Positions 1 to 33,747 of a stretch of 35,724 nucleotides of DNA are shown piece by piece. Every line of letters begins with the position of its first letter. Position 1 is the first letter of the stretch. The stretch is from positions 1 to 35,724 of the forward strand of contig NZ_ANOH01000361.1 of the NCBI RefSeq assembly GCF_000346505.1, written 5' to 3'. Origin of the DNA: Aporhodopirellula sallentina SM41. Its GTDB lineage: Bacteria; Planctomycetota; Planctomycetia; Pirellulales; Pirellulaceae. The notes under the pieces are model-generated. The model searched no databases, was not told the DNA's origin, and saw only the letters and a list, made by a program, of their open reading frames with translations. The position numbers and the translations under genes are program-made.

Positions 1-1728
1 CGTGATGGCTTGATGCAATCGATGGGAATGGATCAACTCCGCGAGGCAATGCTGCCGAAGACCCGAGGGGCGTGGAACCTGCACGAACAATTTGGTGAAA
101 CGCTTGATTTCTTCGTGATGTTTTCTTCGGTGGCGGGAACGATCGGATCTCCGGGGCAGGCGAACTATGCCGCTGGAAATGCGTTTCTCGACGCGTTGAC
201 ATTTCTGCGTCATCAATCCGGCTTGCCGGCGACATCGATCGCGTGGGGACCATGGGATGCCGAGGGAATGGCGGCGACTCCGGAAGTGCGTCGTCAACTC
301 GCAGAACGCGGAATGAGCCCTTTGGCGCCTAGCACGGCGATGCATGTCCTCGACCGAGCGATACGTCGGTCGACCACGCCATTCGCAGTCATGAACGTGC
401 ACTGGGATGCGTTGATCGGCAAAATGGCTGGTGGCGGTTCGAGTTTGCTCAGCGAGTTCCGGTCCGCCGTCGGTTCGAAAGGACAGACGCAGTCGGGCGG
501 GGGACGCGACGAAAAACTATTTTCGATGTTGAGTGCAGCGTCAGCTGACGAACGCTTGAAGGAACTCGAACGGTTTGTTGCCTCATCGCTTGCGGATGTC
601 ATGGGCATTGAAGTCGACGCGATTGAAACGGATCAATCGTTGGCGTCTCTCGGCCTCGATTCGTTGATGGGGATGGAGTTACGGTCCAAACTCGAAGCTC
701 AGCTCGGGATCGAGTTGCCGATGTCTGCTTTGTTTGACGATCCGAGTGTGGCGTCCATCGCTCGTGTTGCAAATGAAGCGTTCGCGTCCACGACGAAGGG
801 GACTGCGACAGCATCGGTCGCCGGCGATTCGGTTTCCGTCAATGGGGCCGCAGTCAAGGCGTCGCCTGCTCGAGTCGAACCGCGATCCAAACCGGGCATC
901 GTTTCGCTCGGAGGATCCCAGGGTGACGGTGCACCACTGTTTTGTTTGCATCCGGTGGGCGGCGATTTGCGTTGCTACGATTCGCTCGCACGTTCGATCA
1001 AGGGACGCCCCGTCTACGGTTTGCGTGCGCAGGGTTTGCACGCCGGCTCGACGGCACACGACACCATGGAGGCGTTGGTTACCGACTACACGAGAATCAT
1101 CCGAGAGACCTACCCGGAAGGACCGTACAGCTTGCTGGGGTGGTCGACGGGCGGTGTGTTCGCTTATGAAATCGCGAGACGATTGCAAGAGCAGAAGCAG
1201 GACATCCAGTCGCTGGTCATGATTGACTCGCCGTTACCGGTCGTCTTTGAAAGCGTGGACCTCGGCGACAATGCGATGTTCCTCGTCGACCTCGTCGAGT
1301 TTGCAAACTACTTTGCAGGAACTTCGATGGAGATTACGTACGAGCAATTGCATCGTCTAAGTGAGCAGGACGCACTCGACTTTGTGTTGCGACTATCGAT
1401 CGATCACGGAGTCTTGCCCGCAAAGACGACGAAAGATTATCTCGAACGACTGATCAACGTCTGCAAACAACACGTCAAGATTTTGCAAGGATACCAGCCG
1501 CCTCCAAGCTATCTGATGGTCGAAATGTTGCGGCCGGAGGTGACCGGATTGCTCACTCACGCAACCGGGCATTCTTTCGACGAAGATCTGGGTTGGGGCA
1601 AGTTTGTGCAACTGCGGTTGCATCAAGTCTCCGGTCATCACTTTACGATGATGACTCCGCCTAACGTCTATTCGATGTCCGAAAAGATCGCTGCCCTGCT
1701 CGGCGAGCCGAGTCTGCCTTCTCTTTGA
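1..1728 (+). CDS. Type I polyketide synthase, C-terminal part (KR end - ACP - thioesterase), 5' truncated by window
   Basis: The frame is open to base 1, so this is the end of a larger protein; residues are counted from base 10. Residues about 33-90 are the C-terminal half of a ketoreductase, with the SSVAG...ANYAAGNAF Ser/Tyr region and the IAWGPWD motif. An acyl-carrier domain follows at about 185-255, with phosphopantetheine site GLDSL (Ser218). A Ser/Ala-rich linker leads to a type I thioesterase at about 305-565. Its likely triad is Ser379 in GWSTGG, Asp406 in MIDSP and His544 in SGHHFTMM. The order KR-ACP-TE indicates the final module, or an iterative single-module enzyme, that reduces the beta-keto group and releases the chain as an acid, ester or macrocycle. 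KS and AT domains must lie left of the window. A GH3 enzyme starts 63 bp downstream in the same direction, so the released acid could be its substrate (inference). Confidence 0.92.
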   Translation, partial: RDGLMQSMGMDQLREAMLPKTRGAWNLHEQFGETLDFFVMFSSVAGTIGSPGQANYAAGNAFLDALTFLRHQSGLPATSIAWGPWDAEGMAATPEVRRQLAERGMSPLAPSTAMHVLDRAIRRSTTPFAVMNVHWDALIGKMAGGGSSLLSEFRSAVGSKGQTQSGGGRDEKLFSMLSAASADERLKELERFVASSLADVMGIEVDAIETDQSLASLGLDSLMGMELRSKLEAQLGIELPMSALFDDPSVASIARVANEAFASTTKGTATASVAGDSVSVNGAAVKASPARVEPRSKPGIVSLGGSQGDGAPLFCLHPVGGDLRCYDSLARSIKGRPVYGLRAQGLHAGSTAHDTMEALVTDYTRIIRETYPEGPYSLLGWSTGGVFAYEIARRLQEQKQDIQSLVMIDSPLPVVFESVDLGDNAMFLVDLVEFANYFAGTSMEITYEQLHRLSEQDALDFVLRLSIDHGVLPAKTTKDYLERLINVCKQHVKILQGYQPPPSYLMVEMLRPEVTGLLTHATGHSFDEDLGWGKFVQLRLHQVSGHHFTMMTPPNVYSMSEKIAALLGEPSLPSL

Positions 1729-1791
1729 AGCAGCGAGTCTACTCCGGTCGGCTCCCCACCGAACTTTGAAAGTCATTTCTGAGACCCGTTT

Positions 1792-3453
1792 ATGAATGCT
1801 CGCTGGGCGTACATCCAACTGCAGACAAGGATTGTCAAGAAGATGCTGGCGGATAGTGTCCGTTCGCACGAGATCCAGCGACAAGTCATGCTCCACAAAG
1901 TGCGCCTTTGCGCCGACAGTCGGTTCGGCCGCGAGCATGGCTTAGCATCGATCCGCAACACCGATGACTTCCGCCGCCAGATTCCGATCACTGACTTTGA
2001 ATATCTACGGCCTTACATGGATGAGGTGCGGAATGGGAACCCGGGTGCGATGTTCGGTCCGAGTACCCGGTTGCTAATGTTCGCGCTGACCTCGGGAACG
2101 ACGGAGAAGCCGAAACTCATTCCGGTGACGGATGACTTCATCAAGAGCTACAAGCGTGGATGGAAGATCTGGGGGCTGAAGACGCACATCGACCATATGG
2201 ATTTGGCACGAAAAGACTACGTGCATTTGGCGGGCGATTGGCAGGAGAGCCAAACCGACGCGGGCGTGTGGTGTGGCAGTATCAGCGGACTCGCTGCGGA
2301 AATCCGTCCGGCCGTTGTTCGTCGTCCCTTTATCGTTCCGCCTCAGGTCGGAAAGATCAGCGACTGGACGAGTCGCCAGTACATGACCCTTCGCCTGTCA
2401 CTGCCTTCGCGACGAGTCGGCATGATCGTGACGGCCAATCCGTTGACCCTGATCAGTTTGGCCAACCTCGCCGATCAGCATAAAGAAACGTTGCTCAAAG
2501 ACTTGCGTGATGGAACCGTCACGATGCCAAATCAAGATGTCGATTACGCGGATTCGTTGAAGAGTCGAGTGCGTCGTGTGAGTCGACGCCGATGTAATGA
2601 ACTCGAAGAGGTCGTCAACCGCACGGGACGACTGTTGCCTCGCGACTTTTGGCCGGAGTTGTCTGTTGTTGGTGTCTGGATGGGCGGTTCCGTCGGTGCC
2701 TTCATTCCCGATGTTCGGAAACTCTACGGTGATTGTGCCTTCCGTGACCATGGTTTATCCGCCAGCGAAGGTCGCATGACCATTCCGATGAACGATGAAT
2801 CCAATGCGGGATTGTTGGACTACACCTCGAACTACTTTGAATTTATCCCTGCGGCGGAATTCGGAAACGACAACCCAACGATTCTTGAGTCGCATGAACT
2901 CGAAGAGGGACAGTCATATTACATCTTGTTGACCAACTCCGGTGGATTGTTTCGCTACAATATTCACGATGTGGTGCAGTGCGCCGGATACGAGGGGCAA
3001 ACGCCATTGCTGACGTTCCTTCACAAAGGCGTGCATTGCAGCAACATGACCGGCGAAAAGTTGACCGAGTATCAAGTTGCCACGGCGGTGCGAGAGGCCT
3101 TCGTTGACTCGCAACGCTCGGTGGAAACGGTGATGTTGGTGCCGGTGATGGATAGCGTGCCTCGGTACATGCTCCTGATCGAATCGCAAGCAGATCAAGG
3201 AGTCGAACGTCTGGCTGAAGCGATTGATTCTCGTCTTTCGAATCTGAACTGCGAATACGAAAACCGGTTGAAAACAAAACGTTTGCTGCCGATCTTGCCT
3301 CGAACGGTTCCGTCGGGAACGTGGGAGCGTCTCCGCAACGAGAAAATCGCAAACCGCGGCGGAACACAGGAACAGTACAAGCACACGTTTCTCGGAACTT
3401 CCGATTCGGTTCTCGATCAATTGCCTGCCGGCACCCTGGCTAGCGGACGGTGA
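1792..3453 (+). CDS. GH3 family acyl-adenylating amide synthase (copy 1)
   Basis: This 553-residue protein belongs to the GH3 family, a branch of the ANL adenylating enzymes. Its plant members activate carboxylic acids such as auxin or jasmonate with ATP and join them to amino acids. Visible family marks are the nucleotide-binding loop LTSGTTEKPKLIPVT (residues 99-113), the HGLSASEG motif, the FEFIP segment, the FRYNIHDVVQ stretch (GLYRYxxGDVV in plants), and MTGEKLTE in the C-terminal hinge. Length is normal for the family. The start is an ATG 63 bp after the PKS stop, in a probable two-gene transcript. A clear paralogue lies at 9339-11027. The substrates cannot be read from sequence; the polyketide acid from the neighbouring synthase is the natural candidate acyl donor (inference). 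Bacterial GH3 proteins are little characterised, so the family call is firm and the reaction is not. Confidence 0.9.
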   Translation: MNARWAYIQLQTRIVKKMLADSVRSHEIQRQVMLHKVRLCADSRFGREHGLASIRNTDDFRRQIPITDFEYLRPYMDEVRNGNPGAMFGPSTRLLMFALTSGTTEKPKLIPVTDDFIKSYKRGWKIWGLKTHIDHMDLARKDYVHLAGDWQESQTDAGVWCGSISGLAAEIRPAVVRRPFIVPPQVGKISDWTSRQYMTLRLSLPSRRVGMIVTANPLTLISLANLADQHKETLLKDLRDGTVTMPNQDVDYADSLKSRVRRVSRRRCNELEEVVNRTGRLLPRDFWPELSVVGVWMGGSVGAFIPDVRKLYGDCAFRDHGLSASEGRMTIPMNDESNAGLLDYTSNYFEFIPAAEFGNDNPTILESHELEEGQSYYILLTNSGGLFRYNIHDVVQCAGYEGQTPLLTFLHKGVHCSNMTGEKLTEYQVATAVREAFVDSQRSVETVMLVPVMDSVPRYMLLIESQADQGVERLAEAIDSRLSNLNCEYENRLKTKRLLPILPRTVPSGTWERLRNEKIANRGGTQEQYKHTFLGTSDSVLDQLPAGTLASGR

Positions 3454-3623
3454 TTCGTCGCCTCGGACGAGAATAACCTCGTTCAATACTCATCTGCCGA
3501 CCGGCGTTTGACTCGGTTCCCATGAGACAACCGAGCGAACACCCGGCGAGATGATTTATTGAGGCACTCGGATCGGTCCTTAATGCCTAGCGTCACCTGA
3601 GCTTCGTTCGGCTGCGTATTGAT

Positions 3624-4460
3624 TCAGGCCGTTGCGATTTGTTTGCACCAATTGGAAAGGTCGCGGAAGTAAGCCCATGGGTCGTCTTCGAATTCGAGCG
3701 TGTGAGAGGCGCCTTCGTACTCAACGATCTTTTTTTGCGTCGAACCGAAACGCCGAACAAAGTTTCGTGTCGGTTCATTCGCGGTGATCGGGTCGGTCGT
3801 TGCGAGTGCCAACATCACGGGCGTTTTAATCTGCTCCGGTTGACTCGTCGCTTGTTGGAGCAATTCAAGGTTGTTGATGGCGAACCGTATCGTGATTTGT
3901 CGAAGCGCGAGTGGGTCCTGCTCAATGAACTTTTGCCAAGACGGTGAGTTGGTGAAAAGAGCGGGATCTTGAAGTGGGACCTGAACCTTTTTGTTCAACA
4001 GCCTGATCCGCTTGGCCAAACTCAACGCCGCACGCTGAGCCCGATTGGCAGCCTTGTTTGAAAAGAGGCCGGGGCAGATGAGAACGAGACCGCTCAGCAA
4101 CTCCGGATGTCGACGGGCGATGCACGTCGCGAGGATGCCGCCCCAACTGATTCCGGCGAGTATTTTGGGACGGTCTTGGGGAAGCGACTCAATATATGTC
4201 ACCACGTCCGAGACCCATGTCGTCCAATGGTCCACGTCGCCGGAACCTTCGAGGTTCAATCCCGACCCGCGTCGTTCGAGGAAATGCACCGCGAACCCAT
4301 CGCCGGCGAGGCTCGAACTACTGGCTTCGTACCAACCCCCGTGACTGACAATCCCATGTAGGAAAACCACATCGGCGATAGGCTCTTTCGTGCCCCAGTA
4401 GCGAGTTGCTAGGTTTCGCGAGTCTATTGCACGGTAGTATTTCAGCTCAGGGTAGATCAT
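3624..4460 (-). CDS. Alpha/beta hydrolase (lysophospholipase/thioesterase-like)
   Basis: A 278-residue alpha/beta-hydrolase fold protein of the serine lipase/esterase (Hydrolase_4-like) group. It shows the oxyanion strand VVFLHG (about 31-36), nucleophile elbow GISWGG with Ser105, acid Asp223 in TTDPIT, and His253 in GASHTLEFE, so a complete triad is present. There is no signal peptide, suggesting a cytoplasmic enzyme. It is the last gene of a four-gene reverse operon, starting 10 bp after the enolase-superfamily gene stops. In this context it could hydrolyse an ester, thioester or amide of the polyketide product, or act as an editing thioesterase; the sequence does not decide. It ends 170 bp from the end of the convergent GH3 gene; no strong terminator was seen in that gap. 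Confidence 0.82.
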   Translation of the reverse strand: MIYPELKYYRAIDSRNLATRYWGTKEPIADVVFLHGIVSHGGWYEASSSSLAGDGFAVHFLERRGSGLNLEGSGDVDHWTTWVSDVVTYIESLPQDRPKILAGISWGGILATCIARRHPELLSGLVLICPGLFSNKAANRAQRAALSLAKRIRLLNKKVQVPLQDPALFTNSPSWQKFIEQDPLALRQITIRFAINNLELLQQATSQPEQIKTPVMLALATTDPITANEPTRNFVRRFGSTQKKIVEYEGASHTLEFEDDPWAYFRDLSNWCKQIATA

Positions 4461-4470
4461 CGGTTGTTGA

Positions 4471-5652
4471 TCAAGTGATGGGATATGATCGTGATTGCAA
4501 TACCAAGCGAGCCAAACTGGATTCGTCGACCGTAATACCGAGTCCGGGTGCAGATATTGCCGGCGCCCATCCGCCTCGTCCGAATGTGATTGATTCGTTG
4601 ATGATAAAGTCTTTCAATAAATGGCCGTCAGCGGAACCTTCTCGGTAGCGAATGTTTTTGATGGAGGTTGCGAAATGGCGACCGGCTGCGGAAAGAATAC
4701 CTGACTCGCCGGGATGGCAACCTAGTTGATAGCCGAGGCCGGCGTGATGGGCCATCGCTGCGAGGTTCAAACTGCTCAAAAAGCCGCCGCATTTTGACAG
4801 TCGGATATTAAACAGGTCGCAGGTTTCGTCTTCGATCGCACGCTCGGCATCAAACTCGCTCGTGAGTGACTCATCGAGCATGATCGGCGTCTGGACGTTT
4901 CGTCTGACTTCTGAGAGTGTAGCGACGTTGTGATGCGATACCGGTTGTTCGGCGGAGGTGATCCCATACGGTTCCAATGCCTCGATACGTTTGGCTGTTT
5001 CTTCGGGCTGCCACGCTTCGTTGGCGTCAACCCGAAGATCCATGCGCGATCCGACGTATCGCCGCATCCGACCTAAACGCTCGGGGTCGCGATCAGGGGT
5101 CATTGCTACTTTGACTTTGCAATGACGAAACCCGTAAATCCGCATCGCCAGCGAGCTGAGTACTTCTTTTCGCGGTTTACCGGAGCTGATGGCACTCGAA
5201 TACTGAACGCGTTCAACAGGTCGATAGATGTCGGATGTCTTTGGGACCATCTTCGCGACGTCGCTCAGCGGTGATTGGAAGAGGCGTCCATATGCATCGA
5301 GAATGCTGAGTTCCACTGCGCACCGGTGAGCGTTGGTGAGACAACGTCGCGGGTTCGGTTTTCCGGCGTCGGGTTGATAGTTTCGGCACGTCTGAAGAAC
5401 ATCCTCCCAGTCCGAGCAATCCGCACCGAGTTGTTTGCTCAGATTTGTCGCGGCGATTTGTTCCATCGCGCCTTCGGGAGACTCTCCCGTGACGTACTCA
5501 CGCGGGATACCTTCGCCCCATCCGATCGTTCCATCCGCCAGTTCACATCGGACAATAAAATTGTCGGTGTAGGATCGTGAGAACGACGCGTGCTTGAACT
5601 CTTTTTTCAGCCGCAAGCGGACGATCATTGCAGCGAGCGAAACTATTCTCAT
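4471..5652 (-). CDS. Enolase-superfamily enzyme (muconate-lactonising subgroup: dipeptide epimerase / o-succinylbenzoate synthase / racemase-like)
   Basis: A 393-residue member of the muconate-lactonising branch of the enolase superfamily. Catalytic residues are all visible: the KxK pair Lys179/Lys181, metal ligands Asp209 (RVDAN), Glu235 (SAEQP) and Asp260 (MLDES), and the opposite-face Lys287 (LSKCGG). The N-terminal capping domain covers about 1-130 and the barrel the rest. This subgroup includes Ala-Glu dipeptide epimerases, N-succinylamino-acid racemases, OSBS and cycloisomerases, all of which abstract the proton alpha to a carboxylate. A two-base Lys/Lys arrangement favours epimerisation. 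Beside GH3 enzymes that may make N-acyl amino acids, an N-acylamino-acid or dipeptide epimerase role is attractive but unproven. Its start overlaps the upstream reductase stop by 4 bp (ATGA), indicating translational coupling. Confidence 0.85.
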   Translation of the reverse strand: MRIVSLAAMIVRLRLKKEFKHASFSRSYTDNFIVRCELADGTIGWGEGIPREYVTGESPEGAMEQIAATNLSKQLGADCSDWEDVLQTCRNYQPDAGKPNPRRCLTNAHRCAVELSILDAYGRLFQSPLSDVAKMVPKTSDIYRPVERVQYSSAISSGKPRKEVLSSLAMRIYGFRHCKVKVAMTPDRDPERLGRMRRYVGSRMDLRVDANEAWQPEETAKRIEALEPYGITSAEQPVSHHNVATLSEVRRNVQTPIMLDESLTSEFDAERAIEDETCDLFNIRLSKCGGFLSSLNLAAMAHHAGLGYQLGCHPGESGILSAAGRHFATSIKNIRYREGSADGHLLKDFIINESITFGRGGWAPAISAPGLGITVDESSLARLVLQSRSYPIT

Positions 5653-6749
5653 CGCTGTTTCCCGGTAAGTTCACGGAAGTGTTTCGCGATCTGTTCACGA
5701 CTGTGAAAGTGCTTTTCCGTTGCTCGTTCCAATTCGTGAACCATGCGAACAACTTTTGAGTTGTAAGGTGCAGGGACGCCCACTTCATCGGCCAATCGAA
5801 CGATCTCTCCGTTGACGTAGTCGATTTCGGTCGGTCGATTTCGCATCAAGTCTTGATACACCGAGAATACAAGTTTGGGCGGATGCAACGGGCCTTGCGC
5901 AACACCGCGAACAATGGTGTCCAGGCAAGGCAAGTTGAGTATCTTCATCAATCGGCGAAATCTCAGTACGTCGGATCCGCCACATGCGTTTTCAACGGTG
6001 ATCCCCGCGGCGTGGAGTACCCGAAATCCTTCCTCTAGGATCGGCATCGCGACGCTGTTTCGCCAATTCTGATTGAGTATCCCGTCACGCAAAAAGTCGG
6101 TCGCCGATAGGACCGAGGCATAGCCCATCGTGTTGAAGAGTAGCTTGTTGTACTGAACGCCTAGGATCGCGTCGGAAGATGCCACAGGGAGTCCTGACGA
6201 ATCCAGTAGGCGTCTTGCCTGCTCGACAACCGTGTGTGGTACCTCCGGCGATGCCGGTCCAATCACGCTCATCCCACGTCGGGTGCACTGGATGACACCC
6301 GGCGCAATGACACCCATGTTGGTCGCCGTCATGCCTACCAACAGTCGATCGGCTGGCAGTATCTGCGAGAGAATTCGTTGGTTGATCCCATTTTGCAGCG
6401 AGACGACGGTGGCGCTGCCAATGGAGGATGCAAATCGCTCGGCCGTCTCCCGCGTGTCTTGCGTTTTGACGGTGAAAAGGATCAAGTCGGAGCCTTCGAC
6501 TGCGTTCGGTTCAGACGATGCGGTGACGGGAACCGAAACGCTGCCCCATTTGCCTCGCAGTTCCACGGTTCCGTTCTGCTGCATCGTTCGAAGGTGTTCT
6601 CCTCGAGCAATCATGACGACGTCGATGTCGGGATGATTTCGTTTGATGAGACCGCCGAACATGCCGCCGATCGCGCCTGCGCCGATGATGCTGATCTTTT
6701 TGGCAGGCGTGGGATTGGGAGAAGGGCTCACGGACTTAATTCGGTTCAC
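5649..6749 (-). CDS. Ketopantoate reductase (PanE/ApbA) family dehydrogenase
   Basis: A 366-residue NADP-dependent 2-hydroxyacid dehydrogenase of the ApbA/PanE family. The Rossmann motif is GAGAIGG (Gly23-x-Gly25-x-x-Gly28), and the second-domain catalytic Lys lies in VQYNKLLFN. Family members reduce 2-oxo acids, classically ketopantoate in coenzyme A synthesis. This gene sits between an exporter and an enolase-superfamily gene, overlapping the first by 14 bp and the second by 4 bp, so a dedicated tailoring role, such as reducing an oxo acid or imine in the locus product, is more likely than primary pantothenate synthesis. That is inference from context. The start is a GTG at 6749; another in-frame GTG at 6731 would give a shorter tail before the Rossmann fold. 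The protein is somewhat longer than a typical 300-residue PanE. Confidence 0.85.
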   Translation of the reverse strand: MNRIKSVSPSPNPTPAKKISIIGAGAIGGMFGGLIKRNHPDIDVVMIARGEHLRTMQQNGTVELRGKWGSVSVPVTASSEPNAVEGSDLILFTVKTQDTRETAERFASSIGSATVVSLQNGINQRILSQILPADRLLVGMTATNMGVIAPGVIQCTRRGMSVIGPASPEVPHTVVEQARRLLDSSGLPVASSDAILGVQYNKLLFNTMGYASVLSATDFLRDGILNQNWRNSVAMPILEEGFRVLHAAGITVENACGGSDVLRFRRLMKILNLPCLDTIVRGVAQGPLHPPKLVFSVYQDLMRNRPTEIDYVNGEIVRLADEVGVPAPYNSKVVRMVHELERATEKHFHSREQIAKHFRELTGKQR

Positions 6750-9141
6750 TGTGTTGGTTGGTCGTTGATTGCGGCGAATCAGGATCCGGTAGGGGCGCCG
6801 TCAATGTCGCAAGAGACTCCCCCGTACGCTCGAGCAAGTCGCCGAGTTTTCCGGCCAATAAAGCGGGCAACAGCACGAGATCTCCGAACAACGCCGTCAC
6901 CAACATCATCAACAGGATCCAGGAGAAGTGACGCACCGGCAGAAAACCGCTGAACGAGTAGATCATCAATCCACACGCGCAGATTACGGTGGTTTGAATC
7001 AGGGCGCCTCCACAACGTTCGTAGGCGATTTTAATTGCTGATTCCTTCGAGGCACCGTTTTTGATGGATTGAATAAACCACTTCAAGAAATGAAACGTGC
7101 CATCGACGGCGATGCCCAACGCGACGCTCGCGGTCATCACGGTGCCAATGTCGATCGCAATCTCGAACCAACCCATTGCTCCGAACATGACGAGTGTCGG
7201 AAATATGTTTGGCATCATTGCAATGAGCCCCGCCGGGATGTTGCGAAGGGCAATCATCATCACCACCGCAACGAGAGCGAGTGCCGTAAGAAAACTGTAG
7301 AACAGGTCTTTCAACAGCATCTTTTGAATGCGGTAGACGAGCACGAGCATTCCCGTGCTCGATGAGGAGATGCCTTCGTAACCCGCGTCTTCTGCGTTGG
7401 AAAGAACGAAGTCGACTTTTGACTGCAGTGAGTCGAGAAATTGCCCGTAGTCGAATTCGGCTTGCCCTTTGACACGAGCACTGATCCGCCAGGATTCACC
7501 GGTTTCGGTTTCCGCGAGGAAGTGAGAATCGATCAGCTCATCTCGGCTTTGTTCGATCTGCCTTAGGAATACCGTTTTGCGAATCGTCGATCCGAGACCC
7601 GTCAACCGCGGGAAACTGGGGACGAAAGTGACCGCCGACATGGTGCCCTGCAGCACATCGATTTGCGACATTTGATTTTCAATCGCGGCGACGATCCGGA
7701 GTCGGTCGATCGGGTTAACGTTGCTGTCGTGGTCAAAGTGAATCACCACTTCGATTGGTACCAGCGGGCAAATGTTGTTCTCGACCCAATGGAAGTCCTG
7801 AACAACGCGGTTGTCTTCAGAGAGCAACGATACGACATCGATCGTGGTTCGTAGTCGCGTCAGCCCAAACCCGAAGGCAATCATCGCGGCGATGCAACTC
7901 ACCCGAATGATGACGCTGTAACGCGAGATGAAATTTGCGACGAAGGCGAACAACGGATGTCCAACGGACCTTTGATCGTCTTTTTGCGGCGAGTGGTTCG
8001 CGGGTGCCGCGTTGAGTGAGTCGGTGTTGCCGCGTTTCTCAGATACATGCAACCAAATGACCATGAACCCGGGCAGCATGAGGAACAACAAGACGACACA
8101 AACGATGACTCCGACCGCGCCGAGAAAACCGAATTGTCGAATCGGTTCCACGTCGCTGATGCATAGCGAAGCCAGCCCGATCGCGGTCGTGAGGGCGGCC
8201 AGGATGCACGGGCCGGTTGCTTTTGCGATCGCACGACTCGGGGCTTTGGCACCCGACCCCAGATCGACTTCCTCAAGGAAGTAGTTTGCCAAGTGGATGC
8301 CAACGCTGACGGCGAGCACAAAAACGAGAGCGGGCAGCACGATCAGGATGGCGTTCATCGTTTCGCCGCCGTAGTAGACCGAGGCCAACATGAAGCCCTG
8401 CGCCCAAGCCCCGACCGCGATGATCGGAATGGTGAGCCAGACCGAACGAAGGCAAACCCAACACAGGACCAACGAAATCAAGATCGAAGGGATGCTGTAC
8501 TGTTGAATCGATCGACTGCTTTCGTCATCGATGGCCATCCCGTCGATCGCGGGACCGGTCATGATGAGGTCGTCGATCGGGATGTCGATCGCATCGGAAA
8601 CGGCGTTTTGAATCAGAGGGATGGTTTCTCGACGTTTGAAAGCTCCGTGTTCGGTGAGTTCGACGACCAACCCGCTCGTCTGATCATCTTCGCCGACGAG
8701 GATCCCATTAATCCGATCGATGGCGGCTTGCCTCGGAAGATCAATCGGCATGGAAGTCAACGAATCGATCAGCGTGTTCCCGGAGAAGATGTTGTTGAAC
8801 AGCTGCGGTTTTCCGGCGGATTCACGTTGGGTTTGGATCTCGCGAACGGCGTCCGCCGCTTGGTCGAGACGTTCGTCATCGATGACGCATCCCTGCCAAC
8901 TGACAACGATCATGTCGTGCGAGCCGAAGAGATCGATAAATGCGTTGAACTCCTGCCGGGCGTCCGCGTCACGGTCGATCCACATCAGGGGCGCGTTGAA
9001 CATCGCCAGCAGGCCACTGTCCGATCCGTGCACCACGAACGGCGCCGAGACGATCAGGCCGAGCACCGTCAGGGCCGCAACGCGGACGTATGACGAATGG
9101 AACCAATGTGGAAGATCCGGGTCGAGCTGTTTGTCAGTCAT
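6736..9141 (-). CDS. RND/MMPL superfamily transporter
   Basis: An 801-residue inner-membrane protein with RND/MMPL architecture: a first transmembrane helix (about 18-40), a large extracytoplasmic loop, a cluster of helices from about 215 to 360, a cytoplasmic linker, a further helix near 410, a second large loop, and a final helix cluster from about 615 to 765. It resembles the patched/HpnN-type exporters that move lipids, hopanoids or other hydrophobic metabolites using the proton gradient. It is the first gene of the four-gene reverse operon and overlaps the next gene by 14 bp, so it is probably co-expressed with the tailoring enzymes and exports their product (inference). The ATG at 9141 is 197 bp from the start of the divergent second GH3 gene, leaving room for promoters in both directions. 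No separate adaptor or outer-membrane channel is nearby. Confidence 0.85.
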   Translation of the reverse strand: MTDKQLDPDLPHWFHSSYVRVAALTVLGLIVSAPFVVHGSDSGLLAMFNAPLMWIDRDADARQEFNAFIDLFGSHDMIVVSWQGCVIDDERLDQAADAVREIQTQRESAGKPQLFNNIFSGNTLIDSLTSMPIDLPRQAAIDRINGILVGEDDQTSGLVVELTEHGAFKRRETIPLIQNAVSDAIDIPIDDLIMTGPAIDGMAIDDESSRSIQQYSIPSILISLVLCWVCLRSVWLTIPIIAVGAWAQGFMLASVYYGGETMNAILIVLPALVFVLAVSVGIHLANYFLEEVDLGSGAKAPSRAIAKATGPCILAALTTAIGLASLCISDVEPIRQFGFLGAVGVIVCVVLLFLMLPGFMVIWLHVSEKRGNTDSLNAAPANHSPQKDDQRSVGHPLFAFVANFISRYSVIIRVSCIAAMIAFGFGLTRLRTTIDVVSLLSEDNRVVQDFHWVENNICPLVPIEVVIHFDHDSNVNPIDRLRIVAAIENQMSQIDVLQGTMSAVTFVPSFPRLTGLGSTIRKTVFLRQIEQSRDELIDSHFLAETETGESWRISARVKGQAEFDYGQFLDSLQSKVDFVLSNAEDAGYEGISSSSTGMLVLVYRIQKMLLKDLFYSFLTALALVAVVMMIALRNIPAGLIAMMPNIFPTLVMFGAMGWFEIAIDIGTVMTASVALGIAVDGTFHFLKWFIQSIKNGASKESAIKIAYERCGGALIQTTVICACGLMIYSFSGFLPVRHFSWILLMMLVTALFGDLVLLPALLAGKLGDLLERTGESLATLTAPLPDPDSPQSTTNQHSEPN

Positions 9142-9338
9142 TACCGCTCATTTGTTCAAATCGAGGTGTCGCCTTTTGGCGGCGACGGGGGCATCGGATT
9201 GCGAGGCGAAAACGCCGACACACGCACCCATTTTGGCTTCCCCACGTGAGCCAAAATGTTACGTGATAGCGACCTTGTACGACAGCCCAAGGGGATTACG
9301 ATACGACGCGTTTCGGCCGTACATTCGCGATCAAATAC

Positions 9339-11027
9339 ATGCATTCCATCTCCCACTATGTGCGTTTTGGCTACCTTCATTGGCGGCTGCGCCGTTTGAA
9401 CCGATACCTGCGGGGCACGGCCGAGTGTCGCGAGGTTCAGCGAACCCGTTTGATGGAAAAAATCAGGCTGAATCAGGACAGCGAATTTGGTCGCGAGCAC
9501 GGTTTCGACAGTATCCGTAGCGTGGCCGATTTCCGCAGCCGAGTCCCTGTCGCGAATTACGAGACCTACCGTCCTTACATCGAGAAGGTAAAAAGCGGAA
9601 ACCCACGAGCCTTGTTTGGCCCCGACACCAAGGTGCTGATGTTCTCGATGACGTCGGGAACGACTAGCAAGGCGAAGTACGTTCCGATCACCAACCATTT
9701 CTTCGATGAGTATCGAAGGAGTTGGAATTATTGGGGGCTCGCCTCGTACCGGGATCATCACGACCTGTTGTCAAAGCACACGCTCACCCTCGCCAGTGAT
9801 TGGGATCAATTTCGAACGTCGGGTGGGATCCCCTGCGGCAGCATCAGTGGCCTCGCGGCGGAGACTCGGCCACGCATTACGAACTCGTTGTTTATTTTGC
9901 CGAAATCACTGCTCAAGGTAAAAGGAACCGAAAACAAGCAGTATGCGTCGCTGCGTGTCGCGATCGAATCGCCTCGTGTGGGCATGATCATGACAGCCAA
10001 TCCGTTGACACTGGTTCATCTCGCACGGACCGCCGATGAGCAAAAAGAGCGACTCATTCGCGATGTGCACGATGGGACGTTGTCCGATCACATCGAGGTG
10101 CCGTCGGAGGTTCGCCAAACGCTGCGTCAACACGGTGGCGGCCCCAATCGCAAACGAGCGAAAACGCTCGAAGAAGTTGTGAACCGAACAGGCCACCTCT
10201 ACCCCAAGGACTTTTGGCCGGGACTGTCGGTTATTTCCGTTTGGATGGGCGGTTCGGTCGCTGCGTATCTCCCGTCGGTGCGAGAATACTACGGGGATGC
10301 GCCGATCCGGGATCACGGTCTGTCGGCGAGTGAGGGACACATGACCTCACCGATGCAGGATGAATCCTGTTCCGGTTTGCTCGATTACGACAGCCATTTT
10401 TTCGAGTTCATTCCACGTGATGAACACGGGAGGGACAATCCAACCGTGCTCGAGGCGCACGAGCTCGAAGAGGGGCAGGAATATTTCTTGCTGATGTCAA
10501 CGTTGAGCGGGCTGTATCGCTACGACATCCATGACGTGGTGCGTTGTGATGGATTCCTCGGGCAATGCCCGCGTTTGACGTTCCTCAATAAAGGAGCCCA
10601 CTATTCGAGCATGACCGGCGAGAAACTCAGCGAACTGCAGGTTACCCAAGCAATCGGCCAGGCGTTCCAGGACTGCGCCCTCAATATCGATCACTACAGT
10701 CTGGTGCCGGTTCCCGGCGATCCCGCCTACTATCGGCTTTTGGTCGAAGAACAACTCGGAGGCGAAAAATTACGCGAGGTTGCGGACGCGGCTGATCGCC
10801 GGTTGAGCGAAGTGAACTGCGAGTACGAGGAGCGGTTGCAAGGGCGCCGCATGGGCGGTGTTGTGGTCGTCAGTGTGCCTCAGGGAACGTGGGCGGAACA
10901 TCGCCGCATGCAGACCTCTGGCGAAGGCAATGATACGTACGCCTACAAACATCCCTTCCTGGCTGCCAAAGCGGAACTGGCTCAGCAATTTCGGAAATTG
11001 TCCGACGAGGCGATCTCGCGATCATGA
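9339..11027 (+). CDS. GH3 family acyl-adenylating amide synthase (copy 2)
   Basis: A 562-residue GH3 protein clearly paralogous to the one at 1792-3453. Shared blocks include the FGREHG segment, MTSGTTSKAKYVPIT loop (104-118), IMTANPLTL, EEVVNRTG, FWPGLSV, HGLSASEG, FEFIPRDE, LYRYDIHDVVR and MTGEKLSE. Differences in the loop (TSKAKYV against TEKPKLI) and in the stretches between blocks suggest different substrates rather than a recent duplicate (inference). The ATG at 9339 gives an N-terminus aligned with copy 1 plus a short Arg-rich extension. Its stop overlaps the stop of the convergent VTT gene by 6 bp. Two adenylating amide synthases in one locus could attach two amino groups in turn, or use alternative acyl or amino partners. 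Confidence 0.9.
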   Translation: MHSISHYVRFGYLHWRLRRLNRYLRGTAECREVQRTRLMEKIRLNQDSEFGREHGFDSIRSVADFRSRVPVANYETYRPYIEKVKSGNPRALFGPDTKVLMFSMTSGTTSKAKYVPITNHFFDEYRRSWNYWGLASYRDHHDLLSKHTLTLASDWDQFRTSGGIPCGSISGLAAETRPRITNSLFILPKSLLKVKGTENKQYASLRVAIESPRVGMIMTANPLTLVHLARTADEQKERLIRDVHDGTLSDHIEVPSEVRQTLRQHGGGPNRKRAKTLEEVVNRTGHLYPKDFWPGLSVISVWMGGSVAAYLPSVREYYGDAPIRDHGLSASEGHMTSPMQDESCSGLLDYDSHFFEFIPRDEHGRDNPTVLEAHELEEGQEYFLLMSTLSGLYRYDIHDVVRCDGFLGQCPRLTFLNKGAHYSSMTGEKLSELQVTQAIGQAFQDCALNIDHYSLVPVPGDPAYYRLLVEEQLGGEKLREVADAADRRLSEVNCEYEERLQGRRMGGVVVVSVPQGTWAEHRRMQTSGEGNDTYAYKHPFLAAKAELAQQFRKLSDEAISRS

Positions 11028-11588
11028 CCAGCGCATGATTCCGGCACCGATGCCGGACATCACCAACGATCCGGGAAGCGTACCGATCGCAGAACACCAC
11101 AGGAAGCGTTGCCACCGCACACCTGCTGCACCGGGAACAAACGATCCGATATGCATTCCCAACCAGGGAACTTGGCGAATGCAAATCAGATACAATGGGT
11201 GTTCGACAGGAACTCCTCTTAGCCAACTAGGAATCCGATCGGCTTCCTGTTCTAAATCAAAATCTTTCCGCGCTCGTCGTCCGAGTCCGAATTGAATCAT
11301 TGCCGCGATATACCATGCGATCCAACTCAAGACCGTGCCGATCGTCATGCCATACAACGCCCCGTTTGCGATCGAGAAAAGATCTGACGGAAATGGGGTC
11401 AATGCCATGAGTACATGGGTCGGCAACAGTATCGCGACGGCGCGAATGCCATACGTTTCTCGAATCTCCTGTATGTCGTGATCTGCCATCCACTGCATCG
11501 CAAACCATCCGGCCACGAAAATGAACACGATCGTGTAAAAGACCGGTGATCGGATCAGGCGTGCCGAAAATCGACGCGTAGTGGACAT
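11022..11588 (-). CDS. VTT/TVP38 (TMEM64, SNARE-associated) family membrane protein
   Basis: A 188-residue integral membrane protein. A first helix (about 14-32) precedes a re-entrant/helix region with the family-like segment LTPFPSDLFSIANGALYG (about 63-80). Another helix follows, then the conserved IRQVPWLGMHIGSFVPGAAG stretch (about 136-155) and a final hydrophobic helix. These features match the VTT domain of the DedA/TVP38/TMEM64 superfamily, whose members act as lipid scramblases or flippases or support membrane homeostasis. No catalytic function can be assigned. The start is the ATG at 11588, 79 bp from the divergent ATP-grasp start. It sits singly on the minus strand inside the metabolite locus and overlaps the GH3 copy 2 stop by 6 bp, so it may simply be a resident gene; a role in handling a lipid-like product is possible. 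Confidence 0.8.
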   Translation of the reverse strand: MSTTRRFSARLIRSPVFYTIVFIFVAGWFAMQWMADHDIQEIRETYGIRAVAILLPTHVLMALTPFPSDLFSIANGALYGMTIGTVLSWIAWYIAAMIQFGLGRRARKDFDLEQEADRIPSWLRGVPVEHPLYLICIRQVPWLGMHIGSFVPGAAGVRWQRFLWCSAIGTLPGSLVMSGIGAGIMRWS

Positions 11589-11667
11589 GGATTCGCACTA
11601 GGAGAGGGTTGGAGACCGATGCAGGAGGCTGTCATTCTAATGTTCGTTTACCAGTCCCACCATTGAG

Positions 11668-12939
11668 ATGAATCGAACCATCGAAAATCCTCGCATTCTT
11701 CTTTCGGAAGGTTCGAGCAACTCAGCCAGGCAAACACTGTACGGCCTTGCACGTGATAGCCACGTGGACATCCTGGACCCGTCTCCCTGGTGTCAGTGTC
11801 GTTTTTCCACCCGAGTGTCACGGCGAATCAAATGCCCGCAGATTGCGAAAGATCCGGTCGGGTATGTTCGTTGCGTTGCGGAATTAGTCCACCGTGAACG
11901 TTATGACGTGCTGTTTCCGACTCACGAACAGGTCTACGCGTTCTCTCGTTTTCGCAGCCAATTTCTAAAACAGGTCGGCCTTGCGGTTCCTGAATTTGAG
12001 GCGATTCAGAGGGTTCAAAGCAAAGCTGAGTTTGCCCTGCTGATGGAGGAACTCGTCCTTCCGACTCCGGTCTCGCGTGTCGTTCATTCCAAATCGGAGC
12101 TGTTCGCACACACTGATTTTCCGTGTTTTCTTAAGGTCGCTCATAGTACAGCGAGCCTTGGCGTGGAACGGGTTAGCGATCCGGTGGCCCTCGAGGAAAC
12201 GGTGAAGCGGTTTGAAGCCGCCGGGGTATGGCGAGAAGGATTGCCGATCGTGCTGCAGCAACCGGCGCCTGGAACGCAAGCAGAAGTGGGAGCGGTCTTT
12301 CAGGACGGACGGATGGTCGCGGTCGCCTGTGCGGATGTGTTGGCAACCGGGATCGGAGGCGGGCCCGCCCTAAGGATTACCGCGAACCATTCTCCGGTCA
12401 TCGAGCACGTCGAACGGTTTGGGAACGCGCTAAAGTGGCACGGTCCGCTGTCATTGGAATACTTTTATGATGCGCACGCCGAGCAGCCGTACTATATCGA
12501 ATGCAACCCAAGGATCGGTGAGAGTTATAACTCGCTAGCCGGTGGCGTGAACTTGTGTGATGCCACCGTGCGCATTTCGATGGGTGAGCAGGTGAATCGC
12601 GTGCCTGATGTTCGCCCCGGTGTGTTGACTCATAATGGATTCATTGTGACGATCGCGGATGCTTACAACGGCGCGTCTCGAATCGAGCTACTTCGCAAAC
12701 TTTGGGCCCACTGGAATCGCCGTGATGGTGGCCAAAGCGAGATGACGCGTTTGAAAGATGATTGGTTGAGCGCCGTGCCGGCTACCGCAGTGATTACGAT
12801 GCTGTTGGTGAATCCGAATGCGGCAAAAGGTTTGGCAAAAGGGACAGTTGACAACTATTCATTGCCTCATCATGCGGCGAGAATAATTGAGGATCTACCA
12901 TCGGAGACGATCGAAGAGATCGAAACGATCCTTTCGTGA
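11668..12939 (+). CDS. ATP-grasp domain protein (carboxylate-amine ligase-like)
   Basis: A 423-residue ATP-grasp enzyme. The N-terminal pre-grasp domain (about 1-115) includes the LFPTHEQVYAF segment. The grasp fold follows, with a nucleotide-binding Lys156 in PCFLKVAHS, an adenine-region LPIVLQQPAPG (192-202) and Mg ligands in LSLEYFY (Glu264) and YIECNPRIG (Glu278, Asn280). Such enzymes form an acyl-phosphate from a carboxylate and couple it to an amine, thiol or other nucleophile. The best-known similar layouts are carbamoyl-phosphate-synthase-like and L-amino-acid ligases. It begins 79 bp from the divergent VTT gene and is followed, 182 bp later, by the two-half aminotransferase on the same strand. 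An amide or peptide bond-forming step in the locus product is a reasonable inference; substrates are unknown. Confidence 0.85.
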   Translation: MNRTIENPRILLSEGSSNSARQTLYGLARDSHVDILDPSPWCQCRFSTRVSRRIKCPQIAKDPVGYVRCVAELVHRERYDVLFPTHEQVYAFSRFRSQFLKQVGLAVPEFEAIQRVQSKAEFALLMEELVLPTPVSRVVHSKSELFAHTDFPCFLKVAHSTASLGVERVSDPVALEETVKRFEAAGVWREGLPIVLQQPAPGTQAEVGAVFQDGRMVAVACADVLATGIGGGPALRITANHSPVIEHVERFGNALKWHGPLSLEYFYDAHAEQPYYIECNPRIGESYNSLAGGVNLCDATVRISMGEQVNRVPDVRPGVLTHNGFIVTIADAYNGASRIELLRKLWAHWNRRDGGQSEMTRLKDDWLSAVPATAVITMLLVNPNAAKGLAKGTVDNYSLPHHAARIIEDLPSETIEEIETILS

Positions 12940-13121
12940 TTCTTCGAACCAATCCGGAAACGGCCCAGTCCGGATACTACCCCATGCGGATACCAAGTGA
13001 ATCGCATAGCTGGCAGGCGTTAACGCCGGTTGTACTGCATTAGCGGCGGCGAACGCCGTTTGGCTGGTGAGGATTCAGAAATGTTTTTTGTCATATCGTT
13101 TTCTGTCCATTGCGTTGAGTG

Positions 13122-15269
13122 ATGATGATGCAAACCGCGGTTGAGCAAAACCTGTTGTCGAGAGCATTCGATGCGAGCGATCTCGAACGCATGCAGGAAA
13201 ATATAGCCGAGCGAATTCCATTTTATGTTCGCATGCAAATCTCGTCCTACGAAGCGTCCGCGGCATGTTTGTTACACGCGCTCGTCAATGGGCGTCGCCT
13301 CGAGCCCCAACCCTTTTATTCGTTCTTTTGCAGTTCGACGTCGGAATCACTTTCGGGCGCTTTGAAGGTCGTTCGGCACAACCATCATGTCGAAAACACC
13401 GGCACTCATTTGGTGACGGCGGTTTATGATCCGACGGATTGGTTGAAGGAACTGTTTGATCCTATGGATGCGGGCACTGATGAAGCTTTGGTGCCGGGGA
13501 TGGTCTATTTCAAAGACTTCGAGCGGTTTACCGATTTCGTCGCGAGCGAGTCACCTCGAAGTTTGCTAATCCGTCATGCCGGAAGCCTCACGGAAGATCA
13601 ACTGGGTGGGGTGATGCGGGAGGCGAGCGAGAATGGGCGTTGGACGATACTCGATGAGTCGACAACCGATTTGTCGTTGGGCGGGCCGATCGCATCGAAC
13701 ATGGAAGTATTGCCGGACGTTGTGGTCTTCGGAGAGAACCTTGCTGATCACAAGTTGCCTGTGGGCTGTTTCCTGATGTCGAAACGTGTCTTCAGCGTTT
13801 GGGACAATGTGAAAGACTACAACCTGCACAGCAACACGTGGGGCGGAAACAGTGCGAGTCTTTCGACGGCGTTGGAGTTCTTGAAGACGACTCCGGAATT
13901 TGGGTGTCTTCCGGATTTGGTGACTGATCAAATGCGTCAGGCAATGTCCTCGCACCCGGCCGCGACGAAACTTTATGAGACGCACTGCAGTCCCAAGATG
14001 GCGACGATGCTCAATGTCGGCGGAATGAACAAGAACATCCGTTCGGCCTACGAGGCTCGGATTACGACGTTGTCACGTCGAGGAAAAGAGAGCGTGATCG
14101 ATGCGTCGGGCACGTACGGTGTCAATCTCTATGGCCACAACCCACCCGATGCGATCGATGAAGTGCTGAAGAAGCACGAGTCTCATGGTGATTATTGGGA
14201 TGAGTTGCAATCGCGATTGCATGAGAAGGCCGGTTTCGCTCATGTCATTCCCGCAGTCAGCGGTGCGACCGCGAATGAAATTGGATTGACCTTATCATTG
14301 CTTGCGTTCGCACCTCGCAAAAAGATCGTCGTGTTGAAGGGGGCTTATGCTGGAAAGACCCTTATTACTCTTTCGGCCACCTCGCGAGATCGATTCAAGT
14401 TGCCGTTTGCTCCACTGTATCCTCACGCTCACTATGTTGACCCTTTTTCCGAAAGCGGCGAGGGGAAACAGCAGTTGATGGACTTGCTCGCGACCAGAGA
14501 CGTGGCGGTCGTCATCTTGGAAACGATTCAAGGGGAAGGTGGCGTGAAGCCGTGTCCGCAGGATTTCCTCGACCTTTTGGTGGTCGCCGAACGCGCGAAG
14601 CACGGTTTTGCGATCGCGGTCGATGAGGTGCAAACGGGCATGTACCGAACCGGTCGCTTTTTGAATCATCAAGGCAAGATCGATGAGCCCGATATCGTGA
14701 TGATTGGCAAGGCATTGAGCAACAACATGTTGCCGGTGTCAGCGGTGTTGGTGAACGAGCGAATTTATGAACTCGCTCGTCAAAACAATGAGCATTTGGT
14801 TCAGCGGATGGAAGCGATGTACCGGTGTCAGATCAACGCTCACATGGCGAATCATGCGATTCAAGTTGGCGAGGATCAAGATCTCGCGGTGCGTTCCCAA
14901 GAGACAGGGAACTACTTCCGAGACAAACTCAAAGCAACCTCGGGTGATTTGTCGCTCGTCAAAGACATCCGGGGGGAAGGATTGATGATCGGCGTCGAGT
15001 TCGAAGAGGCGAAACTGCCTCGTCTCGTTCGCGGCTCATTTGGCGGTTTGATCGCGTCGCGATGCGTGAATGATGCGAAGCAACCGGTGTTGGTTGCATT
15101 CAATCCGGACAAGCCTTTCCTGATTCGGTTTGTCCCACCTCAGTGCATTACGATGGAAGAGATTGATGCGGTGGTCGACACATTCGATCGGGCGCTTCGC
15201 AGTAGCATTCTGGGTTTGCTAAAGCCTGTCGTGGTAAACACCGTCAATTCGAAGATCGGCCGGTTCTAA
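13122..15269 (+). CDS. Two-half class III (PLP) aminotransferase: inactive N-terminal half fused to a catalytic C-terminal half
   Basis: About 715 residues; the start could be any of three ATGs at 13122, 13125 or 13128, or the GTG at 13119 (residue 1 in this numbering). The C-terminal half (about 310-700) is a class III fold-I aminotransferase: SGATANE (381-387), QGEGG (471-475), Asp502 in VDEVQTG, and PLP lysine Lys531 in IGKALSNNMLP. The N-terminal half (about 40-270) aligns to the same fold: CSSTSESLSGAL (71-82), LDES (Asp179), VFGENLADHKLP (204-214) with Glu206 where the lysine should be, and HSNTWGGNSAS (237-247). The usual T-x-GGN loop, which in these dimers contributes to the partner's PLP site, is kept only in the N-half; the C-half has YRCQINAHM there. 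The halves therefore appear to complement each other. The reaction is transamination of an aldehyde or ketone with unknown substrate. No clear ribosome-binding site was found. Confidence 0.88.
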   Translation: MMMQTAVEQNLLSRAFDASDLERMQENIAERIPFYVRMQISSYEASAACLLHALVNGRRLEPQPFYSFFCSSTSESLSGALKVVRHNHHVENTGTHLVTAVYDPTDWLKELFDPMDAGTDEALVPGMVYFKDFERFTDFVASESPRSLLIRHAGSLTEDQLGGVMREASENGRWTILDESTTDLSLGGPIASNMEVLPDVVVFGENLADHKLPVGCFLMSKRVFSVWDNVKDYNLHSNTWGGNSASLSTALEFLKTTPEFGCLPDLVTDQMRQAMSSHPAATKLYETHCSPKMATMLNVGGMNKNIRSAYEARITTLSRRGKESVIDASGTYGVNLYGHNPPDAIDEVLKKHESHGDYWDELQSRLHEKAGFAHVIPAVSGATANEIGLTLSLLAFAPRKKIVVLKGAYAGKTLITLSATSRDRFKLPFAPLYPHAHYVDPFSESGEGKQQLMDLLATRDVAVVILETIQGEGGVKPCPQDFLDLLVVAERAKHGFAIAVDEVQTGMYRTGRFLNHQGKIDEPDIVMIGKALSNNMLPVSAVLVNERIYELARQNNEHLVQRMEAMYRCQINAHMANHAIQVGEDQDLAVRSQETGNYFRDKLKATSGDLSLVKDIRGEGLMIGVEFEEAKLPRLVRGSFGGLIASRCVNDAKQPVLVAFNPDKPFLIRFVPPQCITMEEIDAVVDTFDRALRSSILGLLKPVVVNTVNSKIGRF

Positions 15270-32748: not shown

Positions 32749-32778
32749 CCGCGCTCGTGTCCTCGTTTTTGATCGCGG

Positions 32779-33747
32779 ATGATTCAAAATTTCTCCGAAA
32801 CGACAAAGCTAACGACCGCGGAGATCTTGCGTCTTCGCGGATCAAAAAACGTTGTTTCATCATCGCGGCCCTACACATTCATGGTGGAGCAGGAGCGATC
32901 CGCGAACGGTGAAATCGAAGATGTGGCCACCGTGTTCTTGGCCAACAGCGAGTGCCCCTATCGGTGCTTGATGTGTGATTTGTGGAAGAACACACTTGAT
33001 CATCCGGTTCACTCCGGAGCGATCGCAGAGCAAATTCGATACGCGCTAAAACGATTGCCGAGTGCAAAGAGTATCAAACTGTACAACAGCGGTAACTTCT
33101 TTGATGCCAGAGCAATTCCTAGAACAGACTATCGCGAAATCGCGGAACTGTGCTCGCCGTTCGATAGGGTCGTCGTCGAGAATCATCCGGCGTTGTGCAA
33201 CCAAAGTTGTGTCGCTCTGAATGAGTTGCTCGATGGGCGTTTAGAAATTGCGATGGGGTTGGAGACCGTACACCCGGAAGTGTTGCCGTTATTGAACAAA
33301 CAGATGACGTTGGAGCGGTTCGCGGAAGCCTGTGACTTTCTCGTTAGTAATTCGATAGCCATTCGCGCCTTTGTCTTGCTGCGTCCGCCCTATCTTGATG
33401 AGGAAGAGGGGATTGAGTGGGCAGTCAAATCGATTGAATTTGCCGCGGACTGTGGTGTCGGGTGTATCGCTGTGATTCCTACACGTGCCGGAAACGGTGC
33501 AATTGAGTTCCTGGCCGAGCAGGGTGCGTTCACGCCACCTCGTTTGTCATCGCTTGAGTCGGTTCTCGACAACGTTTTGAAGGAACCGAAAGCATATCGG
33601 GTGTTTGGAGACCTGTGGGACGCGGGTCGTTTTTCTTCGTGTGACCGATGTGTTGATGTTCGCGTGCAACGTATTCAAAACATGAACCTGACTCAGACGT
33701 TCCAAGCCCCCGTTGTGTGTGACTGTACCGAACCGGTGAGTGGTTGA
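32779..33747 (+). CDS. Radical SAM protein, RaSEA/YhcC/Elp3-like
   Basis: A 322-residue radical SAM enzyme. The cluster motif CPYRCLMC (Cys59, Cys63, Cys66; Cx3Cx2C) binds the 4Fe-4S cluster that cleaves S-adenosylmethionine. The following blocks KLYNSGNFFD, EIAMGLETVHPEVLPLLNKQ and RAFVLLRPPYLDEEEGIEWA match the RaSEA/YhcC-type branch, some of whose members modify tRNA bases (RaSEA in archaeosine synthesis). The last part has four further cysteines (288, 291, 314, 316; Cx2C then CxC), which could hold an auxiliary cluster or zinc. It starts 30 bp after the synthetase-like gene, and its TGA shares one base with the ATG of the flavoprotein gene, so these two are translationally coupled. Substrate is unknown; tRNA or small-molecule modification are both possible. 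Confidence 0.86.
   Translation: MIQNFSETTKLTTAEILRLRGSKNVVSSSRPYTFMVEQERSANGEIEDVATVFLANSECPYRCLMCDLWKNTLDHPVHSGAIAEQIRYALKRLPSAKSIKLYNSGNFFDARAIPRTDYREIAELCSPFDRVVVENHPALCNQSCVALNELLDGRLEIAMGLETVHPEVLPLLNKQMTLERFAEACDFLVSNSIAIRAFVLLRPPYLDEEEGIEWAVKSIEFAADCGVGCIAVIPTRAGNGAIEFLAEQGAFTPPRLSSLESVLDNVLKEPKAYRVFGDLWDAGRFSSCDRCVDVRVQRIQNMNLTQTFQAPVVCDCTEPVSG

Follow-up and report, generated by a model that had tools for sequence, protein, structure and literature searches.

The window analysed here, a 35,724-nucleotide stretch of the Aporhodopirellula sallentina SM41 genome (contig NZ_ANOH01000361.1), carries a gene in which two stretches related to class III aminotransferases are joined in a single chain, preceded by genes for polyketide synthase (PKS), GH3-family and ATP-grasp-like proteins (Table 1). 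The cluster at positions 1-12939 is conserved in Rhodopirellula rubra and Aporhodopirellula aestuarii and includes two GH3 genes, enolase-superfamily and ketopantoate-reductase-like genes, and an MMPL transporter. Its counterpart in R. rubra (G003) begins with an AMP-ligase with an acyl carrier protein (ACP), presumably FAAL-like, followed by a PKS (KS-AT-DH-ER-KR-ACP-TE), GH3, a hydrolase and an enolase-family gene, and continues through ApbA-like, MMPL, GH3, VTT and ATP-grasp-like genes to the tandem aminotransferase. Toward the other end of the window, asparagine-synthase-like, radical-SAM-like (a sub-threshold match) and tryptophan-halogenase-like flavin genes lie consecutively at 31411-35285.

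Table 1. Features of the window; residues are numbered from the ATG at 13122.
Feature	Coordinates	Strand	Basis or remark
Type I PKS 3' end, KR-ACP-thioesterase	10..1728	+	Cut by contig start; 2511 aa in a relative's locus (L060)
Second GH3-family gene	1792..3453	+	Pfam
GH3-family acyl-acid amido synthetase-like gene	9339..11027	+	Pfam
ATP-grasp-like gene, directly upstream of tandem gene	11668..12939	+	NCBIfam matches below cut-offs
Tandem class III aminotransferase gene	13119..15269	+	GTG at 13119 (716 aa) or ATG at 13122 (715 aa), plus stop
N-half, residues 1-283, degenerate class III large domain	13122..13970	+	HMM, phmmer and profile-profile matches
N-half residues 73-74, own phosphate turn (YgjG Gly150/Thr151 equivalents)	13338..13343	+	Unconserved
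Glu205 at N-half PLP-lysine position	13734..13736	+	Glu in 41, Asp in 1 of 42 tandem proteins
N-half loop HSNTWGGN, residues 236-243, with Thr239 (YgjG Thr332* equivalent)	13827..13850	+	Alignment
C-half, residues 284-715, complete class III aminotransferase	13971..15266	+	
C-half SGA turn, residues 380-382, own phosphate binding	14259..14267	+	Ser380 and Gly381 invariant in 41 rows
C-half Asp501 (YgjG Asp271 equivalent, pyridine nitrogen)	14622..14624	+	41/41
C-half Lys530, PLP lysine	14709..14711	+	41/41; aligns with YgjG Lys300
C-half MYRCQINAHM, residues 566-575, in place of lost T-x-GGN loop	14817..14846	+	T-x-GGN-like matches in 0/41

Aminotran_3 (PF00202) is the sole Pfam family matched by the tandem protein (E up to 0.001), and the match (E 1.8e-55; 188.7 bits, above the cut-off of 30.5) falls into two stretches, the best of which covers residues 324-692. 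The C-half (~284-715) is fused to an N-half (~1-283) that lacks the N-terminal segment and has no small domain of its own. Taken alone, the N-half gives a weak but real class III match to a putrescine aminotransferase model (E 1.3e-9) and a phmmer match to PDB 4uox (E 1.6e-7). Its profile matches that of ordinary aminotransferases over residues 17-256 with 99.2% probability (E 5.8e-20), so that the profile comparison finds the same fold in the N-half and not a different one; the profiles of the two halves match each other weakly (51.6% probability, E 1.5e-4). The assignment of the N-half fold is based on these profiles together with the full-chain model described below. A preliminary description of the locus had proposed two aminotransferase halves, and the class III kinship of the N-half stands, but the N-half is a large domain only and not a full second subunit. 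All of the motifs quoted in that description are present, in the N-half CSSTSES (70-76), LDES (177-180) and WGGNSAS (240-246), and in the C-half SGATANE (380-386), VDEVQTG (500-506) and YRCQINAHM (567-575).

The best match in the PDB by sequence is YgjG, the putrescine aminotransferase of Escherichia coli (4UOX), which differs from the tandem protein in being a homodimer whose chains each carry both the PLP lysine and the phosphate-binding loop. In YgjG, PLP sits on Lys300, Asp271 contacts the pyridine nitrogen, and the phosphate is held by Gly150, Thr151 and, from the partner subunit, Thr332* (PMC4244111). Counting equivalent residues by hand along pairwise alignments, we found that Lys300 aligns with Glu205 in the N-half and Lys530 in the C-half, and that Thr332 aligns with Thr239 of the N-half and falls, in the C-half, into the MYRCQINAHM stretch, which is predicted to be mostly helical (DSSP on the AlphaFold2 model). 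Because this alignment puts the lysine in the C-half and the loop in the N-half, the complementary active-site losses described earlier are correct, with residue numbers shifted by one: the Glu206 and Lys531 of that description are real, counted from the GTG, and are Glu205 and Lys530 from the ATG. Read by eye, the N-half has nothing that clearly corresponds to the YgjG Phe180 region or to the ILEPIQGEGG strand.

A search of 98 related genomes returned two close full-length orthologues in the genus (69% and 65% identity) and two distant full-length homologues at 28-30% identity, to which an order-level search added two; within the genus the tandem gene occurs in 3 of 13 genomes, the window's included. 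Of 392 genomes from the phylum searched by profile, 111 had a match at E 1e-3 or better, and among the listed matches of those 111 the N-half was matched strongly only in the window, G071 and G670, and weakly in the others. A named scan with the full-length protein as query found no relative; repeated with an N-half alignment it kept 80 of 90 relatives, comprising 40 tandem proteins and 40 single-domain enzymes. With the window and G080 added, the tandem set comprises 42 proteins from Planctomycetota, Actinomycetota, Cyanobacteriota and one Bacteroidota MAG.

Across this set the N-half position of the PLP lysine is occupied by Glu in 41 proteins, by Asp in one (L114) and by Lys in none, so that lysine in both halves, which would speak against specialisation of the halves, is found in 0/42. 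The N-half HS[NT]T loop is kept in 42/42, reading HSTT[FY]QPN in the planctomycete/cyanobacterial clade instead of T-x-GGN. The C-half retains the lysine and lacks the loop in all 41 readable cases; L106, which ends before the C-half active site, is left out of the C-half counts and of the 41-row alignment. A row for L186, for which a wrong reading frame had been picked, was dropped. Among aminotransferases not selected by loop, 16 of 16 keep both the lysine and the loop threonine (the exact T-x-GGN in 12), and the single-domain hits of the named scan, whose loop was selected by pattern, keep the lysine in 40/40. Since the 16 controls keep both elements and the 42 tandem proteins keep the split, the pattern is not a matter of chance. 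The C-half thus has the lysine and the pyridine-nitrogen aspartate that a class III enzyme requires (41/41), and the T-x-GGN-type loop expected in the same unit lies in the N-half; because loop and lysine sit in different halves, we do not file the protein as an ordinary class III member.

The patterns of the named scan included the loop, and all 40 of its tandem hits match it, so the loop count above is partly a product of selection. The search was repeated for this reason with an N-half profile, no match to the loop pattern being required, against 397 genomes of the window's class, Planctomycetia. Matches at E 1e-10 or better came from 40 genomes; 34 were strong (E 1.4e-67 or better), and 30 of these gave loci, of which 29 were readable, the window included (24 seen before and 5 new). 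All 29 show the split pattern, with 27 Glu and 2 Asp at the N-half lysine position and lysine in both halves in none. The concern that loop retention is purely a scan artefact, partly conceded for the named scan, is answered within the window's class.

Conservation along the 41 aligned tandem proteins is reciprocal, falling on the partner loop in the N-half and on the catalytic residues in the C-half, with the mirror elements variable. Entropy is 0 at W227, H236, S237, T239 and N243 of the N-half and at S380, G381, D501 and K530 of the C-half; it reaches 2.8 and 2.4 bits at positions 73 and 74, where the N-half would have its own phosphate contacts, and 1.8-3.3 bits at 562-571, the place of the lost C-half loop, next to which Gly572 is kept in 38/41. 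At the dead N-half site, 31/41 still have Asp178. Compared with L093, its nearest relative, the window is 65.7% identical in the N-half and 70.3% in the C-half; synonymous changes are near saturation, and purifying selection acts on the N-half (pN 0.23, pS 0.73) about as it does on the C-half (pN 0.18, pS 0.72).

In a quick tree of 165 shared columns, from which the lysine and loop columns were left out, the N-halves of 26 of the 42 tandem proteins form one clade (SH-aLRT 100) and their C-halves another (99), with similar sub-clades, beside 27 single-domain rows. The split looks like one old event that has been retained since, and because the losses probably happened once, the 42 proteins represent one conserved event and not 42. 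Long branches were flagged in the tree, and we take from it no view on the ordinary aminotransferase from which the N-half arose. A recent local fusion was rejected, as distant homologues share the tandem form and each half is one clade. Other long frames of 800-950 aa in related genomes, among them L007 (932 aa) and L018, contain an ordinary class III domain and are possibly PigE-like fusions; both the lysine and the loop threonine are retained in L007 and L018.

A further homologue, found by tblastn without selection on the loop, is encoded on the Methylorubrum extorquens AM1 megaplasmid (NC_012811.1) in a PKS locus that we take to be the one linked to toblerol. There the tandem pair (~18.2-20.2 kb) is part of a 1674-aa protein (L173:7402-12423) with ACP, alpha/beta-hydrolase and flavin monooxygenase domains, and shares 29.5% identity with the window protein across 93% of the latter. 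In the N-half, Glu stands at the lysine position and the loop is lost, reading RHPMANLGF; the C-half has Thr at the lysine position and no SGA turn. Such a joint loss, of the lysine in the C-half and the loop in the N-half, is what intramolecular coupling of the two would predict, in one case. Three more queries in plasmid searches gave no further plasmid records covering 80% of a tandem protein. The AM1 tandem part is doubly dead, with the lysine in neither half, and perhaps has a PLP-free role.

AlphaFold2, run on the whole chain with a 41-sequence alignment, gave a mean pLDDT of 91.6 and a pTM of 0.93 over both halves, from which the halves are predicted to lie in a fixed arrangement; halves without fixed packing should not reach such a pTM. 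Residues 231-240 are among the less confident in the model (mean pLDDT 72). By homology, the arrangement would be that of the usual class III dimer interface. In the lists of 50 matches from VIA and from Foldseek, every entry either aligns with the C-half or belongs to class III, and no glycine decarboxylase P-protein appears among them, which excludes nothing.

Taken together, these results make it very probable that the tandem protein is an intramolecular pseudo-heterodimer whose chain has a single active site, in the C-half, completed by the Thr239 loop of the N-half. In such an arrangement the C-half would bind PLP on Lys530 and carry out the chemistry, and the N-half, a large-domain-only pseudo-subunit with its own PLP site dead, would pack on the C-half in place of a partner subunit and bind the PLP phosphate at the C-half site through Thr239 of HSNTWGGN. 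The mirror-image site, made up of the N-half lysine position and the C-half loop, would have been lost on both sides, leaving a single site per chain. The pseudo-heterodimer interpretation, first put forward in the preliminary description, draws support from the shared fold of the N-half, from the finding that no homologue has lysine in both halves and from the joint loss in AM1. What the data show directly is the residue split, its conservation in several phyla, the two half-clades, the N-half fold seen by profile and a confidently predicted rigid body; packing at the usual dimer interface, contact between Thr239 and the phosphate, and aminotransferase activity are inferences.

Alternatively, C-halves of two chains could form an ordinary homodimer, as the catalytic domain of PigE reportedly does, leaving the N-half as an accessory dock for a carrier protein or neighbouring enzyme. 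Such a dock would suit the carrier-protein domains encoded near the tandem gene in two clades, and PigE, whose N-half is a separate reductase domain, is the best-scoring NCBIfam model for the tandem protein, if far below its cut-off (NF053554, 196.9 against 850 bits; the putrescine aminotransferase equivalog, NF008570, reaches 183.1 against 612). Yet the C-half has no threonine loop to offer a twin (41/41) and the N-half keeps precisely that loop, the planctomycete/cyanobacterial clade has no match to PKS and NRPS seeds in the up to 10 kb surveyed on each side, and the pTM favours fixed packing, so we regard a docking role as improbable. PigE itself (4PPM, prodigiosin biosynthesis) shares the C-half type with the tandem protein and differs in its N-terminal half, which is a thioester reductase-like domain (PMC8341465) and not an aminotransferase domain. 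A PigE-like reductase was ruled out for the N-half of the tandem protein, whose model matches, in the 25 listed of 27, are all to aminotransferase models, the PigE model being matched in its aminotransferase part.

Still less probable, in our estimation, is a chain with two different sites, in which the N-half pocket retains a ligand or non-covalent cofactor of its own and Glu205 is functional. The near invariance of Glu205 (41 Glu and 1 Asp of 42) and the retention of Asp178 are in keeping with such a role, and in glycine decarboxylase a PLP-binding role was proposed for the N-terminal half, which lacks the lysine (PMC7259800). However, the N-half's own phosphate turn is unconserved, the YgjG Phe180 and ILEPIQGEGG segments lack clear counterparts, the partner loop that an N-half site would need is gone from the C-half, and Glu205 may be structural. 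That the gene is a decaying fusion or an assembly artefact with no working partnership, as the somewhat greater divergence of the N-half and the presence of the gene in only 3 of 13 same-genus genomes might suggest, has next to no probability, being already contradicted by conservation: orthologues with the same neighbours occur in two related genomes, the tandem form is kept in several phyla, and pN is well below a near-saturated pS in both halves.

The closest working analogue of the pseudo-heterodimer that we propose is the P-protein of glycine decarboxylase (GcvP/GLDC), which has two aminotransferase-like halves per chain with the lysine only in the C-terminal one. The N-terminal half of GLDC lacks the PLP lysine, having glutamine there, the C-terminal half has it, and the enzyme is described as having an unusual make-up for fold type I (PMC7259800). 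The tandem protein has this design, a lysine-less N-half and a lysine-bearing C-half in one chain, and gives no match to the P-protein family in Pfam (E up to 0.001). The P-protein differs in belonging to a decarboxylase family and in being a chain of >1000 aa or separate alpha/beta subunits, and the dead half of the tandem protein, unlike that of the P-protein, is a large domain only. Another asymmetric fold type I pair is LCB1/LCB2 of serine palmitoyltransferase, in which one subunit is without the lysine; these are separate subunits of the alpha-oxoamine synthase family. Among the matches listed from the openly licensed PMC literature, none deals with a tandem class III aminotransferase, which is no proof of absence, and the portion of a review of aminotransferase evolution considered here describes no such case (PMC9309667).

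The genes around the 42 loci, surveyed up to 10 kb on each side, differ among clades, which are distinguished here by loop type, by neighbouring genes and, in 26 loci, by the tree. Clade A, to which the window belongs, has an ATP-grasp-like gene in 4/4 loci and GH3 in 3/4 (the fourth contig is 6.5 kb). Clade B consists of 28 loci from planctomycetes and two cyanobacteria and has an unknown 620-aa protein in 28/28, an unknown 177-aa protein in 27/28, and phosphatidylserine decarboxylase-like and GMC oxidoreductase genes in 24/28 each, some of these contigs being short, with no match to PKS and NRPS seeds within the surveyed span. The set is exemplified by L112, L109 and L025; the 620-aa protein has no Pfam match in L112 and L025, and its L024 version has a sub-threshold FAD_binding_4 match. 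Clade C comprises nine actinomycete loci with NRPS-seed matches in 9/9 and P450 in 8/9; its seed NRPS (L107:12374-18475), which follows the tandem aminotransferase, is dimodular (A-T-C-A-T-reductase) and ends in a thioester reductase. In one actinomycete locus, L104, a fatty acid desaturase gene lies upstream. The remaining locus (L096) is from a Bacteroidetes MAG. The expectation in the preliminary description that homologues would lie beside GH3 and PKS genes thus holds in the window's clade, with GH3 as above and the PKS in two close relatives, but not in the other clades, which have different clusters.

These different neighbourhoods suggest different substrates, and their common thread is probably the amination of a pathway-specific carbonyl compound. 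The candidate is plainest in clade C, in the aldehyde that the NRPS reductase should release; in clade A neighbourhoods no aldehyde-forming gene was recognised. In the window's clade the tandem gene is accompanied by an AMP-ligase-ACP gene, a reducing PKS, two GH3 genes and an ATP-grasp-like gene, a setting that suggests that an amine is supplied or modified for a lipid amide.

In fold type I PLP enzymes, active sites are usually shared between the subunits of a symmetric dimer, and class III aminotransferases are much used as biocatalysts. If the pseudo-heterodimer reading is true, it adds a further asymmetric fold type I case beside glycine decarboxylase, within the class III aminotransferases. 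Tentatively, and with rather less than even confidence, we extend this to a class III lineage that would be obligately asymmetric across phyla, its dead half freed to fit different pathways (with PKS and GH3, in an operon with phosphatidylserine decarboxylase-like and GMC genes, or with a reductase-ended NRPS), in which the Methylorubrum pseudo-dimer may later have lost PLP chemistry and gained a PLP-free role in a PKS-locus protein. The family also allows a direct test of why a dead pseudo-subunit is kept: a single invariant threonine, with the loop that carries it, in a protein from which most other traces of a second active site are gone. More broadly, the tandem form points to a set of uncharacterised genes, probably amine-forming, in gene clusters of planctomycetes, cyanobacteria and actinomycetes.
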